Positions 3,528-17,970 of a stretch of 21,898 nucleotides of DNA are shown here, piece after piece. Made by a program: the position numbers and the translations under genes. The notes under the pieces are model-generated. The model saw only the letters and a program-made list of their open reading frames with translations. It ran no database searches and was not told the DNA's origin. Positions within the stretch are counted from its first letter, which is position 1, and the number at the start of each line of letters is the position of its first letter. The DNA comes from a virus: IMG/VR virus record IMGVR_UViG_3300037628_000367, positions 1 through 21,898 of that record. One strand, written 5' to 3'.

Positions 3528-3709
3528 CGGGGGTCCTCCTCCCGGGGCGCGGGGATCACACCCAGGATCGGATACTCCGATTTGAGCCAGGCATTGAAGG
3601 CCTCGGCCGGGTTCGGCTCGCCCTTCTTCTCCGTCGCGTCGAGGGCCCACTTTCCACCCTCATGGAACGCCGACCACAATAGGTGCCTGAGTTCCTCAAG
3701 GAGCCTCAT
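3524..3709 (-). CDS. Hypothetical protein, 61 aa
   Basis: The start at ATG 3709 is chosen because of a GAGGAGG RBS immediately upstream; the longer form from 3763 has only an Arg/Thr-rich extension. The product begins M-R-L-L-E-E-L-R-H-L-L-W-S-A-F-H-E-G, an amphipathic helix, and continues with A-E-A-F-N-A-W-L-K-S-E-Y-P-I-L-G-V-I-P-A-P-R-E-E-D. The stop overlaps the DUF3307 start as ATGA, and the start lies 14 bases inside the upstream gene. The amphipathic helix may contact the membrane, perhaps with the DUF3307 product, which is speculation. No family recognised. Confidence 0.65.
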   Translation of the reverse strand: MRLLEELRHLLWSAFHEGGKWALDATEKKGEPNPAEAFNAWLKSEYPILGVIPAPREEDPR

Positions 3710-3932
3710 CGGGTTCCTCCTCGACCTTGTAGATGCTCTCGGCCATGTCGTCCTGCTCGGCATGGTGCTCCCGGTCGCGGGCCTCCTCCAGCGCCTTTCG
3801 GATCGCGTCGTTCACCGTCTCCGTTACGATCTGCTGGCCGAAGAGGAACTTGCGGCAGCGGTCCAGGCGCTCCATACGGGTCTCGCCGTACCAGGTGCCG
3901 ATCTCGCTTTCCAGGGAATCAGTGTTGGCCAT
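3696..3932 (-). CDS. Hypothetical charged helical protein, 78 aa
   Basis: The ATG at 3932 follows a GGAGAG RBS and lies 14 bases inside the preceding gene. The protein starts with an acidic segment (D-S-L-E-S-E-I-G-T-W-Y), then R-M-E-R-L-D-R-C-R-K-F-L-F-G and a long charged helix (T-E-T-V-N-D-A-I-R-K-A-L-E-E-A-R-D-R-E-H-H), ending with an acidic tail. The helix from about residue 36 to 60 could form a coiled coil. No catalytic or metal motif is visible. Second gene of the leftward operon; function unknown. Confidence 0.65.
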   Translation of the reverse strand: MANTDSLESEIGTWYGETRMERLDRCRKFLFGQQIVTETVNDAIRKALEEARDREHHAEQDDMAESIYKVEEEPDEAP

Positions 3933-4363: not shown

Positions 4364-4666
4364 ATGAAGCACAATCGAAGGGGATTCTTCCGAATGCTGC
4401 TGGCAGCTCCCGCTGCCGCTGCCATAGCCGCTGGGCTCTACAAGCCTCGGCCGACGTGGACTCCGCTCAACCTGAAGTACACGAAGATCATGGGCACGAT
4501 GGAGATCACGCCCGAGGCCTACAAGGCGGTCTACGGTGGCGGCCGTGGTGGTGGGAACTTCGCAAGGCTGCTGATGGAGACCCTGCAGAAGCATCAGGAG
4601 GACATGAACAGATTCTATGGCTTCCACAGGGCGGCCATGGGTGACGATATTGGCGTCAGGGGGTAG
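4364..4666 (+). CDS. Small Tat-signal exported protein, 100 aa
   Basis: The ATG at 4364 is preceded by an AGGGGGG RBS. The N-terminus is a twin-arginine leader: N-R-R-G-F-F-R at residues 4-10 followed by a hydrophobic Ala-rich h-region (M-L-L-A-A-P-A-A-A-A-I-A-A-G-L) to about residue 25. A cleavage site is not obvious. The mature part has L-N-L-K-Y-T-K-I-M-G-T-M-E-I-T-P-E-A-Y and a Gly-rich loop G-G-G-R-G-G-G-N, then a helix A-R-L-L-M-E-T-L-Q-K-H-Q-E-D-M-N-R-F. This would place a folded product across the inner membrane or anchored in it. Function is unknown; the G-rich loop is not a P-loop. A second Tat-leader protein is encoded at 5397-5651. Confidence 0.65.
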   Translation: MKHNRRGFFRMLLAAPAAAAIAAGLYKPRPTWTPLNLKYTKIMGTMEITPEAYKAVYGGGRGGGNFARLLMETLQKHQEDMNRFYGFHRAAMGDDIGVRG

Positions 4667-4691
4667 GTGCTAGCTGGCGAGCGACGTACCT

Positions 4692-5075
4692 GGAGTGCCC
4701 GAAATTATTCCCTTTCGACGGGTGGCTCCCACGGTCTAGAGAATCCGTGCTTGCAAGCCCCCTGGCGTCATTCGCTTTTGAAGGAGCAGCGGCAGAGCCG
4801 TTGTCATAGCGGTGTGCGTTAGTCGTACCTCACCGTGGCGAACCCCCTGTAGGGGGGGCGGGCCTACACCCGGCCGTTGCTCCGTGGTTTTGCTGGTCGC
4901 CCGCTGATAGCGACACCTCAGTCCTGGGCGGGGAGTGCGGTTTCTTGCAGAGACGCCTGTGACCGTGCTGGGTTTAGTCACCCGGCCAGCTTTGATTGCA
5001 GGGCCGTGACCCCGAGGGGTTGCGCTTGAGGGGATGAGTGCCCCCAGTTGACTCACCCCGATCCGTATCGGTTTT
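4692..5075 (+). ncRNA. Candidate structured RNA (about 380 nt) or long leader, ending in a terminator
   Basis: The gap 4667-5115 has no convincing gene, but the + strand folds by eye into a run of hairpins. Stems: GGAG/CTCC plus CCCG/CGGG (4692-4729); CACGG/CCGTG (4730-4749); seven pairs CAGCGGC-AGA-GCCGTTG (4787-4803); CGGTG/CACCG (4810-4835); CCCCC-TGTA-GGGGG (4843-4856); GTCGC/GCGAC (4896-4914); GTCA..GGCC/GGCC..TGAC (4977-5010); GGGG..GAGT/ACTC..CCCC (5030-5059); and the terminator stem CCGAT/ATCGG (5058-5071) with TTTT. The last two stems share bases 5058-5059, so they may be alternatives. It may be an independent small RNA, or a 5' leader/attenuator of the gene at 5116. Known classes (tmRNA, RNase P, 6S, group I intron) were considered and none matched by eye. 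Confidence 0.45.
5058..5075 (+). terminator. Intrinsic terminator
   Basis: A perfect five-base-pair stem CCGAT-CCGT-ATCGG (5058-5071) is followed by TTTTGT. It lies 41 bases before the start of the next gene and ends the folded region. The stem is short, so termination may be partial, as in attenuators. Confidence 0.5.
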
Positions 5076-5115
5076 GTCGTTGCCGTCACGGCCCAGTTCT
5101 CACAAAGGAGGAACC

Positions 5116-5400
5116 ATGCCCTCGCACACCCCAGCAGAGCGGGCCAAGAACCGCCCAGCTCGCGATGCCCAGAGACGCAGGAACACCGCGAAGGTCGCCA
5201 AGTCCGCGATCAAAGGGCAGCCACCCAGGTCGGCCACGGCAGGCCTCGTTGTAGGCCCCCTCCTGGGTCCAACCAGGGGCGCTGCGGCGGCGAGGACGGG
5301 ACGGGCCATGAATGCCCGCGCCGCCAGGGCGATCAGGGCACCCAGGAACTCTCCCCCGATGAGTAGCCTCGACAACGTGGGCGGCATCAGCGGGCGATGA
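5116..5400 (+). CDS. Basic alanine/arginine-rich protein, 94 aa
   Basis: An AAAGGAGG RBS with ideal spacing selects the ATG at 5116 over an upstream alternative at 5038 that would start inside the terminator region. The N-terminal 40 residues are highly basic (R-A-K-N-R-P-A-R-D-A-Q-R-R-R-N-T-A-K-V-A-K). A short apolar segment follows (A-G-L-V-V-G-P-L-L-G-P), then another Arg/Ala-rich run (A-A-A-R-T-G-R-A-M-N-A-R-A-A-R-A-I-R). The apolar segment is too short to be a sure TM helix. Nucleic-acid binding or membrane association is possible; no family is recognised. The stop overlaps the next start (ATGA). Immediately downstream of the candidate structured RNA. Confidence 0.6.
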   Translation: MPSHTPAERAKNRPARDAQRRRNTAKVAKSAIKGQPPRSATAGLVVGPLLGPTRGAAAARTGRAMNARAARAIRAPRNSPPMSSLDNVGGISGR

Positions 5401-5651
5401 TCCGCAGGACGTTCATCAAGCGGTTCTCCGCTGGAGTCCTCGGCTGTGGTATGCTGGCCGACGCCCTCCTCTCTCGCGGACCCACGATGATGGTGGCCGA
5501 GACCGATATGCCCGTGGCCTCGGCACGCTTCATCCCGGAGCATCGGCGCATCGACGTCGGCCCTCGGGTCCGCAACCGCGACGACATGGAGCACAAGTTC
5601 GAGCGCGGCCACGGGGTGCTCTACGTCAACGGCCTCCCTGACTATGGCTAA
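5397..5651 (+). CDS. Small Tat-leader protein, possibly lipoprotein, 84 aa
   Basis: The ATG at 5397 overlaps the previous stop as ATGA; there is no clear SD, so coupling is likely. The first residues M-I-R-R-T-F-I-K-R-F fit the twin-arginine consensus (R-R-x-F-I-K) and are followed by a hydrophobic region with G-V-L-G-C17, a possible lipobox for lipid attachment, and M-L-A-D-A-L-L. The mature part has A-R-F-I-P-E-H-R-R-I-D-V-G-P-R-V, N-R-D-D-M-E-H-K-F-E-R-G-H-G-V-L-Y-V-N-G-L-P-D-Y. No enzyme motif is visible. Together with the product of 4364 it forms a pair of phage Tat-leader mini-proteins, both of unknown role. Confidence 0.65.
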   Translation: MIRRTFIKRFSAGVLGCGMLADALLSRGPTMMVAETDMPVASARFIPEHRRIDVGPRVRNRDDMEHKFERGHGVLYVNGLPDYG

Positions 5652-5805: not shown

Positions 5806-5935
5806 GAAGGTTCGGGTTCGACGCTCGCAGAAGCAGAAGATCAGTGATAAGATCTCCCTCCTCGTGAGAGAGGGGAAACCACGGAAGCAGGCCATCGCCA
5901 TCGCCCATTCAATGTCGAGACGAGGAGACCTATGA
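5798..5935 (+). CDS. DUF6496-like small basic protein, 45 aa
   Basis: I start at a GTG at 5798; a TTG at 5747 would add a low-complexity Ser/Thr/Gly extension. The protein reads M-A-K-K-V-R-V-R-R-S-Q-K-Q-K-I-S-D-K-I-S, then L-V-R-E-G-K-P-R-K-Q-A-I-A-I-A-H-S-M. The last part matches the motif of short phage and bacterial proteins of the DUF6496 kind (E-G-x-P-x-K-Q-A-(V/I)-A-I-A-x-S-M). The role is unknown; such genes are often close to head or terminase genes. Its stop overlaps the next start (ATGA), which has its own GAGGAG RBS. Confidence 0.6.
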   Translation: MAKKVRVRRSQKQKISDKISLLVREGKPRKQAIAIAHSMSRRGDL

Positions 5936-6237
5936 CGCCCTCAATGCCGCCGGTAGACAGCCGCAACAACGGCCCCCGCGAGCTGACCGAGGAAGAGGTC
6001 AAGCACGAGATCTTCAAGCGCCAGGAGAAGGCCAAGCGAGCCCGCAACCAGACGAAGGGTGGGATCCTGATCGGGGCGGTCGGCATCGCCCTGGCCGCGT
6101 ACTCTGGCCTCATCACCGGGTTCATCTGGATGACCGTCCTCGGGTTCGTGATGGCCCTGATCGGCTTCGGGTTCATCAACGTCAAGGAAGCCGGCGACAT
6201 CGCCAAAGGGCTCCTCGGCCGGGGTGGCAAGGACTAG
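5932..6237 (+). CDS. Two-TM membrane protein, 101 aa (holin-like by topology only)
   Basis: The ATG at 5932 follows a GAGGAG RBS and overlaps the previous stop. A charged N-terminus (E-E-E-V-K-H-E-I-F-K-R-Q-E-K-A-K-R-A-R) of about 42 residues precedes two hydrophobic segments, G-I-L-I-G-A-V-G-I-A-L-A-A-Y (residues about 44-60) and F-I-W-M-T-V-L-G-F-V-M-A-L-I-G-F-G-F (about 64-82), joined by a short loop. The C-terminus is short and basic. Two TM helices with charged ends and about 100 residues fit small holins, and the next gene looks like a membrane-anchored coiled coil, but no endolysin was found nearby. Holin function is therefore only a possibility. Confidence 0.7.
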   Translation: MTPSMPPVDSRNNGPRELTEEEVKHEIFKRQEKAKRARNQTKGGILIGAVGIALAAYSGLITGFIWMTVLGFVMALIGFGFINVKEAGDIAKGLLGRGGKD

Positions 6238-6876
6238 GTGCTTCCATCCTCTCGGGCGCAGTGGATCTTCCAGATCGTGGTCCTCGCCATCCTGGCTGTC
6301 GTAGGCCGGAACTACTTTACGGCCAGCGCGGAGGCCAGGCTCTTGGCTGACCAGCTCGAAGTCGCGCTCGACAGCGTTGAGGTGGCCGTCGATGCCCACG
6401 AGTTGGAGATCGCCAAGAGTGACAGTCTGATCGCCCTCCAGGACTCAGCGCAGGCGGCGGACACCGCAGCCGTCAACGCGGTGGCGGCGGTCTCCGACGA
6501 GACCGCCAGCGAGACGGCGAGAGCACTGGCAGAGGCCAGGGAGGCGGCTGCAGGGTTACCCGTCGTTCAGGCGGCTCTGGACCGGGCAGAGGAGGCCCTG
6601 GCCGCTTCTGAGGAAGCTCGCCTGGAGGAGAGGTCCACGAGTGCGGCGGCTCTCTTCGGGTCACAGCAGCGGGAGCGCACACTCGGGCTGCAGCTCATCA
6701 GCGAACGCACGACGGCCTCCACGGAAATCACCCGACTGAACACGGCCCTGAGTCTCTCCATGCAGGAGGCTATGGCCTGGCAACGTGCAGCTTCCCCAGG
6801 GGCCCTGACACAGATTTGGAGACAGGGGAGGGCCGCCGTTGTGGCCGTCATCCTCGTCACAGTAATCAGCAACTAG
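6238..6876 (+). CDS. Membrane-anchored coiled-coil protein, 212 aa (Rz/i-spanin-like)
   Basis: A GTG at 6238 follows directly on the TAG of the two-TM gene. Residues about 9-22 (I-F-Q-I-V-V-L-A-I-L-A-V-V-G) form an N-terminal TM helix. Then comes a long Ala/Glu-rich region (residues about 30-185) with heptad-like spacing (L-A-D-Q-L-E-V-A-L-D-S-V-E-V-A-V) predicted as coiled coil. The end has a second apolar segment (A-A-V-V-A-V-I-L-V-T-V-I). N-terminal TM plus periplasmic coiled coil is the shape of inner-membrane spanins (Rz-like), but length and the C-terminal apolar helix are atypical, and no outer-membrane partner was identified. A tape-measure-like or scaffolding role is less likely given the position before TerL. 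Confidence 0.6.
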   Translation: MLPSSRAQWIFQIVVLAILAVVGRNYFTASAEARLLADQLEVALDSVEVAVDAHELEIAKSDSLIALQDSAQAADTAAVNAVAAVSDETASETARALAEAREAAAGLPVVQAALDRAEEALAASEEARLEERSTSAAALFGSQQRERTLGLQLISERTTASTEITRLNTALSLSMQEAMAWQRAASPGALTQIWRQGRAAVVAVILVTVISN

Positions 6877-6884
6877 GAGTAGGC

Positions 6885-7172
6885 ATGAGAGACGCAACAA
6901 TCGAAGAGACGATGTCCGATCAGAAGGAAGAGGCACCCCACCAGGCCGCTTCACGGCGTCTGCGGATCCAGGCCATCGAGAAGTTCTTCGCGCCGGTCGT
7001 GATCAAGAACGGCACCAGGCAGAAGTCCTCCATCGAGACGATCCGCGAGCGGTGCCGACTGCTCGCCCTGGCGATTGAGGACCACGTCCCTGAGGGTGAC
7101 CAGAAGGGGGTCGCCCGCCAGAAGTGTGCCGAGGCGATGTTCTGGGCGAACCAGGCCATCAGCCATCGGTGA
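6885..7172 (+). CDS. Acb2/Tad1-type helical-hairpin protein, candidate anti-CBASS cyclic-nucleotide sponge, 95 aa
   Basis: The ATG at 6885 has an AGGAG RBS just upstream, and its TGA overlaps the GTG of terL. The N-terminal 25 residues are polar. The rest matches the short helical hairpin of the Acb2/Tad1 hairpin family: one helix with S-S-I-E-T-I-R-E-R-C-R-L-L-A-L-A-I-E-D-H (residues 48-67), the turn V-P-E-G-D-Q-K, and a second helix A-R-Q-K-C-A-E-A-M-F-W-A-N-Q-A-I-S (77-93). Family members often carry the same (I/L)-x-x-(T/H)-(P/V)-P-x-x-x-x-(K/S)-x-x-A-x-x-K-x-x-E-A-x-x-W-A-N-x-A-I pattern. Acb2 proteins bind cyclic di- and trinucleotides and block CBASS defence. Binding-site residues cannot be checked without alignment, so the activity is inferred. 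Confidence 0.62.
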   Translation: MRDATIEETMSDQKEEAPHQAASRRLRIQAIEKFFAPVVIKNGTRQKSSIETIRERCRLLALAIEDHVPEGDQKGVARQKCAEAMFWANQAISHR

Positions 7173-8695
7173 CTGAGGGCGTCGTCTGGGCTCCGAACAG
7201 CGAGCCCCAACGTCAGTTCTGTGCGTCCACCGAAACGGAGGTCCTCTACGGTGGAGCGAAGGGCTGCGCGAAGTCGGACGCCATCCTGTTCGCGTCCCTC
7301 TCGCAGGTTCACCTGCCGCGCTACAAGGCGCTGATCCTTCGGCAGACCTTCCCGGAAGTCCAGGAGCTGATCGACCGCAGCGCGTTCGCGTTTCCCCAGC
7401 TCGTGAACGCGCCAAGCTGGAAGGGCGACCTCAAGCGGTGGACCTTCCCAGGCGGCGGCATCGTCCAGTTCGGGTACTGCAGCACGAAGGAGGAGGTGCA
7501 GCGATACCACGGGCAGGAGTGGGCCTACATCGGATTCGATGAGGTGGGTGACGTCGCGGACGAGAACGTGTGGGTCATGCTCATGGCCGAGAACCGCTGC
7601 AAGAATCCCGAGGTGATCACGATGATGCGCGGCTCCGCGAACCCAGGGAAGCCGGGCCACCCGTGGATCAAGAGGCGGTTCATCGACAAGTGTGGGAAGA
7701 AGGGCGAGAAGATCTATCGCTTCACCCACCAGATGCCTGCCTACGAGGATATGCCCGCCATGGAGGCGTCGATCACCAGGCGCTTCATCCCGGCTCGAGT
7801 CACGGACAACCCTGTCTACGCGACCGACGCCATCTACATGGCCAAGCTCTTCAGCCTCCCGGAGATGCTCCGTCGCCAGCTCCTCTACGGGGACTGGGAC
7901 GCCGGCTTCGGCATGGGCCTGGACGAACTGAACGAGGACGTCCACATCCTGCAGCCCTTCGGCATCCCGCCCAACTGGGTCCAGTTCGGATCGTTCGACT
8001 GGGGCTACAGCCATCCGTGGGTGTTCGGGCACTACTGCGCGGACGAGGACGGGGTGGTCTACAAGGTCAACACCTACCGTGGCCGCCTCATGTCGGATCG
8101 GGTGATCGCGGAGGCCATCAACCACCACGTCGATGTCTCGGCTCTCCGTTACATCGTCGCCGGGCACGACTGCTGGTCCCACCACAAGGCCCGCCTGGAT
8201 GACGAGACCCCGTCCACCCAGGAGCGGTTTGCGGATGCGCGGATCTTCCTGACCCATGCGTCCATCGCTCGGTACGCCGGGCTCAAGAATCTGCGAGAGA
8301 TGGTCGCTTGGAAGGGCATCATCCCGAATCCCGACGGAGGCGATCCCTTCGACGGCGAGCCCAACCTCTACTTCATGGATACGCCGGGCAACCGGAAATG
8401 CTTCACGTCCCTGGAGATGATGGTCACCAACCCCGAAGACCCCGAGGACGTCCTCAAGCGGGACGCCGATGCGATCACGGGTGAGGGTGGCGACGACGAC
8501 TACGACGAGACGCGCTACGCGCTGGCCTCCCGCCCCGGCCGCGCCAAGACCAACTGGAAGGAGCAGGAGGTCAGGGCCTTCAGCAAGGCCACCCTGCTGC
8601 ACGAGATGGAGAAGCGCCGGCACACCTCCGGGCCGCTCACCAGGTCGATCATGGAGCAGGAACACGACCTCATGGTGGACGGGATGGTCCAGTGA
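7169..8695 (+). CDS. terL: Terminase large subunit (ATPase/nuclease), 508 aa
   Basis: I choose the GTG at 7169 because it overlaps the previous stop (GTGA). The N-terminal ATPase shows the Walker A-like loop G-G-A-K-G-C-A-K-S (residues 28-36), in which the usual Gly before Lys is Ala, and Walker B Y-I-G-F-D-E (120-125). A coupling-motif-like segment R-G-S-A-N-P-G-K-P-G-H-P-W follows near 155. The C-terminal nuclease has acidic residues at expected places: F-G-S-F-D277-W-G-Y, G-H-D334-C-W and D-Y-D446-E-T-R-Y-A-L. The protein packages DNA by docking on the portal and cutting concatemers. The portal is encoded 4 kb downstream. No classical small terminase gene precedes it. Confidence 0.9.
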   Translation: MTEGVVWAPNSEPQRQFCASTETEVLYGGAKGCAKSDAILFASLSQVHLPRYKALILRQTFPEVQELIDRSAFAFPQLVNAPSWKGDLKRWTFPGGGIVQFGYCSTKEEVQRYHGQEWAYIGFDEVGDVADENVWVMLMAENRCKNPEVITMMRGSANPGKPGHPWIKRRFIDKCGKKGEKIYRFTHQMPAYEDMPAMEASITRRFIPARVTDNPVYATDAIYMAKLFSLPEMLRRQLLYGDWDAGFGMGLDELNEDVHILQPFGIPPNWVQFGSFDWGYSHPWVFGHYCADEDGVVYKVNTYRGRLMSDRVIAEAINHHVDVSALRYIVAGHDCWSHHKARLDDETPSTQERFADARIFLTHASIARYAGLKNLREMVAWKGIIPNPDGGDPFDGEPNLYFMDTPGNRKCFTSLEMMVTNPEDPEDVLKRDADAITGEGGDDDYDETRYALASRPGRAKTNWKEQEVRAFSKATLLHEMEKRRHTSGPLTRSIMEQEHDLMVDGMVQ

Positions 8696-17894: not shown

Positions 17895-17909
17895 TCAGCA
17901 GGCGGGTAA

Positions 17910-17935
17910 CCCTGGGGGGTTTCGGCCCCCCAGGG
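17910..17935 (+). terminator. Strong hairpin after the major capsid gene
   Basis: CCCTGGGGGG (17910-17919) pairs perfectly with CCCCCCAGGG (17926-17935) around a TTTCGG loop: ten G-C-rich pairs, 16 bases after the mcp stop. No U-tract follows, so it more likely acts as an mRNA 3'-end stabiliser or partial terminator that raises capsid over downstream expression. Confidence 0.55.
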
Positions 17936-17970
17936 CCGCATCATTGGCTCTGAAAAAACGGAGAATTATC

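Follow-up and report, generated by a model that had tools for sequence, protein, structure and literature searches.

Covariation points to a conserved four-way-junction RNA ahead of the lysis and terminase genes of uncultivated phages

Results

A module of about 120 nt, designated M1, was identified in the 21.9-kb virus record IMGVR_UViG_3300037628_000367 of an uncultivated phage, which was analyzed over its whole length of 21,898 nt (hereafter the window). M1 folds into a four-way junction and is very probably a genuine RNA structure under selection. It was found in 6/6 phages, the window included, that reach the locus at a terminase identity of at least 73%, and it occurs in exactly one copy in each phage having the locus, always in the orientation of the operon and ahead of the lysis and terminase genes. 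M1 probably represents a new family of phage RNAs, of which few members are known. The statement as a whole, namely that M1 is a conserved RNA and that the array to which it belongs acts in cis on the late mRNA, is put forward tentatively, with slightly less than even confidence.

Genomic context of the array

The first ~4.2 kb of the window is occupied mostly by leftward genes, and a rightward set runs from 4364 on. Within this set, the array stands between a small gene with a twin-arginine-type start and a small basic-protein gene, followed by a second gene of the twin-arginine type, the stretch 5932-6876, a gene at 6909-7172, and the genes for the terminase, the portal, and the major head protein (Table 1). 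The product of the first gene gave a weak match to the Pfam TAT signal model (E 0.021), and family searches with the product of the basic-protein gene returned no family match. We read the stretch 5932-6876 as small membrane and coiled-coil genes of the lysis-cassette type. The array had been described in an earlier note on this DNA as gene-free, which nearly holds, the only exception being the stop codon of the upstream ORF (TAG, 4664-4666), which lies in the 5' strand of the M1 outer helix. An antisense ORF at 4736-5089 has no counterpart in the relatives.

Two further observations were made in the rightward set. The product of 6909-7172 (plus strand) contains an Acb2/Tad1 hairpin domain (PF24729, E 1.6e-8), which marks the family of phage sponges for cyclic nucleotide defence signals; this gene adjoins and overlaps the large terminase gene and is 52-84% conserved in six relatives. 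Additionally, a strong GC hairpin without a T-run, CCCTGGGGGG-TTTCGG-CCCCCCAGGG, was observed at 17909-17940, just 3' of the major head protein gene.

Table 1. Coordinates of the modules, their parts, and the neighboring genes in the window.
Feature	Position	Strand	Description	Basis
Small gene	4364-4666	+	twin-arginine-type start RRGFFR	homologues in L002, L003, and L004, 47-55% identity
M1	4651-4770	+	four-way-junction RNA, ~120 nt	fold, covariation, covariance-model matches
M1 P1	4651-4664/4757-4770	+	outer (closing) helix, 13-14 bp	
M1 P2; P3; P4	4665-4691; 4692-4729; 4730-4749	+	three hairpins stacked almost without linkers	
M1 P3 loop, CCUUUCGAC	4711-4719	+	loop motif	invariant in window, L002, L003, and L004; absent from L006 and L008
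M1 J4/1	4750-4756	+	unpaired 3' joining strand CUUGCAA	UUGCAA or close variant across relatives
MX	4783-4883	+	11-bp outer helix around three hairpins	z -3.0 to -3.5; folding alone
M2	4892-4990	+	7-bp outer helix GCUGGUC/GGCCAGC around three hairpins	z -2.6; L004 homologue
M3	5001-5094	+	outer helix GGGCCGUG/CACGGCCC around three hairpins	L002 and L003 homologues
Reported "terminator"	5058-5075	+	CCGATCCGTATCGG-TTTT	internal to M3
Ribosome-binding site	5104-5111	+	AAAGGAGG, of the gene at 5116	direct reading of the sequence
Small basic-protein gene	5116-5400	+	N-terminus and ribosome-binding site like short ORFs of L003 and L004	by eye
Second small gene	5397-5651	+	twin-arginine-type start RRTFIKR	near operon head
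Large terminase	7124-8695	rightward set	phrog_979/phrog_2 type	family match

Distribution among related phages

The comparison covered ten phage contigs with a close relative of the terminase and a further, distant one (L012). In L002, L003, and L004, whose terminases are 82-84% identical to that of the window, M1 lies at the same place, with M2 also present in L004 and M3 in L002 and L003. An M1-like module occupies the same locus in L006 and L008 (73-75% terminase identity), and L005 and L007 end short of the locus. A covariance model of M1 built from four phages (R1) matched L002, L003, and L004 with an E of about 1e-32 and, independently and at the corresponding place, L006 with an E of 2e-4. 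The model misses L008, although that phage folds into the same four-way form, and no match to M1 was obtained by covariance model in L009 to L011 (61-68% terminase identity).

When the entire viral collection was searched with several patterns, no further family member emerged. The M1 core and end-helix patterns matched 13 and 19 stretches, the M2 pattern GCAGAGACGCCTGTG matched 35, and the M3 pattern matched at least 120 (five with a tighter pattern); beyond the known relatives, the inspected matches were chance or coding repeats. L198, retrieved through the interior pattern of L006 and L008, was likewise judged to be a chance match, and a distant blastn comparison of the window, L006, and L008 regions with annotated phages returned nothing meaningful.

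Among 298 genomes from the phylum to which a Gemmatimonadota bin belongs, four contained relatives of the terminase, the best at 64% and one on a contig of over 240 kb, and the best match listed among annotated phages was 39%. Based on these sequence matches, the host may be Gemmatimonadota, the one phylum searched. R1 gave four matches in 395 genomes of the same phylum (E 0.01-0.06 per genome), which were at chance level with unconvincing alignments.

Structure and covariation of M1

The fold of M1 in the window had a z-score of -3.63, with 0/300 dinucleotide shuffles as stable, and its antisense strand scored -0.39. On the plus strand, M1 scored -4.5, -3.9, and -4.1 in L002, L004, and L008, respectively, again with no shuffle as stable, and only -1.55 in L006; antisense z-scores over the phages ranged from -1.8 to +0.3. 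In a four-sequence alignment, 93.9% of the cells were paired, versus 40-49% with one strand slid, and double-sided changes occurred at 10/41 pairs, versus 0-2 in the slid controls; as the alignment structure was taken from L002, the paired percentage leans to that phage and more weight belongs to the double-sided count. In the outer helix, 65/65 cells were paired over five distinct sequences, three of them close, a count that is partly preselected because L006 and L008 were first spotted by eye and then retrieved with a pattern that already required purine-pyrimidine in part of the helix but left positions 3 and 10 free. Double-sided changes were found at 5/13 positions of this helix, and 0/20000 column shuffles reached 65 paired cells. 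Covariation in relatives, which had been named as the decisive test, is thus borne out for M1.

Two G-U positions of the outer helix were also kept, with U-G in 5/5 sequences and G-U in 4/5, the one change being to G-C. Because G-U pairs are conserved and the antisense score is near zero, the evidence points to M1 as an RNA rather than a DNA cruciform. A DNA element was weighed in two forms, a cruciform-forming packaging or origin site and a small mobile element bounded by inverted repeats. The location ahead of the terminase operon would suit it, a GGCGTC...GGCGTC repeat resembles a target duplication, and L002 and L003 share 147 identical nucleotides across M1 where the neighboring 50-nt bins are 44-88% alike. 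However, the stability is specific to the plus strand, and DNA would have mismatches at the conserved G-U pairs. The end repeats of L006 and L008 have changed in a way that keeps the pairing but loses the direct repeat, so the mobile-element reading of the repeat was rejected. The terminase genes of L002 and L003 are themselves 93% alike, and the 147-nt identity may stem from exchange, from ordinary constraint, or from the overall closeness of the two phages. A DNA element is therefore regarded as quite improbable.

Limits and modules of the array

The earlier note had drawn the array at 4692-5075 and proposed an independent RNA of about 380 nt. Cut in this way, the stretch had a folding energy of -162.8 kcal/mol versus -158.2 kcal/mol in dinucleotide shuffles (z -0.71), a lack of gain that the note itself had said would refute its proposal. 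The poor score arises from wrong limits, since the third helix of M1 begins at 4692 and 5075 lies inside M3, so that both modules lose their outer helices in the cut. The corrected block, approximately 4651-5094 on the plus strand, comprises four modules, and in each of them an outer helix encloses three hairpins. Against dinucleotide shuffles, a z-score of -2.4 was obtained for the plus strand of 4649-5096 and one of +0.15 for its minus strand, and the plus-strand z-scores of the single modules were -3.6 for M1 (with no shuffle among the 300 as stable), -3.0 for MX, -2.6 for M2, and -2.2 for M3. The case illustrates that a bad fold score can reflect wrong limits and not missing structure.

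Within the corrected limits, the hairpins of the earlier description stood, and the stems that it named are present in the sequence: CAGCGGC/GCCGTTG and CCCCC/GGGGG inside MX, and CCGATCCGTATCGG followed by TTTT at 5058-5075. Several of the stems drawn by eye are, however, not the conserved ones, and the CAGCGGC/GCCGTTG stem competes with the 11-bp outer helix of MX. Instead of a single RNA, the array is a chain of separate modules.

The array had also been read as acting on the gene at 5116, as its leader or attenuator, with an intrinsic terminator at 5058-5075. The hairpin and TTTT are present in the window and L003, and M3 stands directly ahead of the ribosome-binding site, as this reading would have it. 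However, CCGAT/ATCGG is internal to M3, 19 nt before the end of the M3 outer helix; the T-run is absent from L002; and three terminator-like sites were found, this one included, versus 2.2 expected in shuffles, which is chance level. In addition, L002 carries M1 and M3 without a gene like that at 5116, its M3 preceding a different gene, and the subsequent lysis and terminase genes would fall beyond the terminator. No GC hairpin with a T-run kept in the relatives was found, and we consider an attenuator of this kind very improbable.

The remaining modules differ in their conservation. No sequence like MX was found in any relative. M2 has a homologue in L004 (459-549), with a conserved GCAGAGACGCCUGUGACCGUG and three double-sided pairs between these two sequences. 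M3 shows a conserved UGCGCUUGA and six double-sided pairs over three sequences, and its conserved four-way fold lies at most 0.2 kcal/mol from the optimum; its z-score of -2.2 is matched by an equally low antisense score of -2.3. Support for M3, present in three phages, and for M2, present in two, is modest. Both are probably optional modules of the same general build as M1, and MX may be another.

Chance folding of GC-rich intergenic DNA, free of function, was a further concern, the earlier note having cautioned that such DNA forms stems easily. Over the whole window, a stability filter for four-way folds returned 27 plus-strand and 19 minus-strand candidates, mostly within genes, and sliding z-scans did not pick out the array, as coding stretches went down to z-scores of -5 to -6. 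Since four-way folds and low z-scores are common here, covariation was relied on instead and carries the claim; for the same reason, the common build of the four modules is no evidence for a shared origin. Chance folding applies to MX, which occurs in one phage only, and weakly to M2. It is already disfavored for M1 by covariation, synteny, and strand asymmetry, and covariation also speaks against it for M3, so as an account of the array it appears highly improbable.

Several short sequences recur around the modules. The 9-mer TTTGTCGTT occurs once each in the window (5073-5081), L003 (8539), L006 (3629), and L008 (5032), always in or beside the module array. The 13-nt sequence CAGTTGACTCACC is present both in M3 (5045-5057) and in a second structured stretch of L006 (3580-3592). 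L006 also contains a further strongly folded module at 3652-3728 (GTCAGCGGG...CCCGCTGGCATC, z -3.9), which shares its end motif with M1.

Comparison with known RNAs

A search against the 4,227 families of Rfam 15 gave no match at gathering score in the window and none over the array region at an E of up to 5-10, and no match at gathering was obtained in L002, L003, L004, L006, L008, and L011. ARAGORN predicted no tRNA in the window or in L002-L011, and a 70% threshold gave only poor, mispaired candidates in the window; the array showed neither tRNA arms by ARAGORN nor a match to the Rfam tRNA clan. Literature searches turned up no description of these elements. The earlier view of a new phage structured RNA outside the known classes, consistent with the absence of an Rfam match at any threshold tried, is upheld for M1 and is probably right for M3 and M2 as well.

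Likenesses to known systems are of a general kind. HK022 put and lambda-type antitermination leaders are structured, lie close to the beginning of a phage operon, and act in cis on the transcript; a put-like element makes RNA polymerase read through terminators. The M1 array is similarly placed and might act in cis as well, but put elements are much smaller hairpins than M1, with no match in sequence or structure. The phi29-type pRNA is a junction RNA of 100-180 nt with a three-way junction that works with the phi29 ATPase. Like M1, it is phage-encoded and has a long closing helix, with a sequence that varies and a structure that is kept. In contrast, M1 has a four-way junction, no Rfam pRNA match was found, and the phage encodes a large terminase of the phrog_979/phrog_2 type. 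Junctions of pRNA are treated in PMC5340915 and PMC12670572. Strings of cloverleaf-type RNAs in a gene-free stretch are also seen in phage tRNA arrays, but M1 to M3 have no T-arm, 7-bp acceptor, or anticodon arm. GOLLD, ROOL, and OLE are large, ornate structured RNAs of phages and mobile elements that were found by comparison and whose function is unknown (PMC12286853); unlike M1, they are single RNAs several times longer, and no Rfam match to them was found here.

Discussion

The placement of M1 relative to its neighbors favors an intercistronic element acting in cis. The stop codon of the upstream gene falls 9-54 nt into M1 in four phages (window, L002, L003, and L004), and in the same four phages 18-25 nt separate the end of the last module from the next ATG, a gap that holds a purine-rich ribosome-binding site. 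From the location, strand, fold, covariation, synteny, and spacing observed, we infer that 4651-5094 would be transcribed on the plus strand within the rightward lysis and packaging (late) transcript, and that the array would fold after ribosomes leave the upstream stop codon. The folded array might then set the ends or stability of the message, or dock a phage or host factor for an effect of the processing, protection, or antitermination type, and it would present the next ribosome-binding site just past the last helix. Against such action in cis, translation would disrupt M1, into which it extends by 54 nt in L002 and L003. The intercistronic setting is also not universal, as L006 and L008 have no convincing upstream gene; in these phages, the transcript may begin directly with M1.

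In the main rival reading, M1, perhaps along with M2 and M3, is cut out of the transcript to act in trans as a small structured RNA; it might bind a phage protein as a packaging RNA does, or serve as a tRNA-like mimic or decoy. The self-contained fold with its long closing helix and the single M1 of each phage with the locus would suit such an RNA, and the conserved unpaired motifs are as well suited to it as to an element acting in cis. Upstream of the terminase operon, in a stretch free of genes, L011 also carries a degenerate tRNA-like cloverleaf of 72 nt (4513-4584), with CAU at the anticodon position and a GAGGTTCGATTCCTC T-arm. This cloverleaf gave a weak match to Rfam tRNA-Sec (21.3 bits, gathering 47), under the Rfam cut-off, was called by ARAGORN only at a lowered threshold, and is distinct from M1, which itself has neither tRNA arms nor an Rfam match. 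Furthermore, neither a promoter-like site near M1 nor a conserved terminator was found, and M1 overlaps coding sequence. An excised RNA working in trans is therefore possible but rather unlikely, and the element acting in cis on the late mRNA is retained as the preferred, if tentative, reading.

A broader proposal is that M1 founds a new class of phage RNA. In this view, it would be an essential four-way-junction RNA, present in one copy per genome where the late operon begins, in a group of uncultivated phages whose host is possibly Gemmatimonadota; a variable set of related junction modules would go with it, and it would serve late gene expression or DNA packaging. This we hold to be doubtful as a whole. 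Should M1 itself prove to be what it appears, a group of phages seen only in metagenomes would carry a previously unrecorded family of RNAs in a fixed position before the lysis and terminase genes. Structured RNAs of phages are few, and several of the large ones have no function assigned; at 120 nt and with clear limits, the compact M1 offers a practical object for testing.
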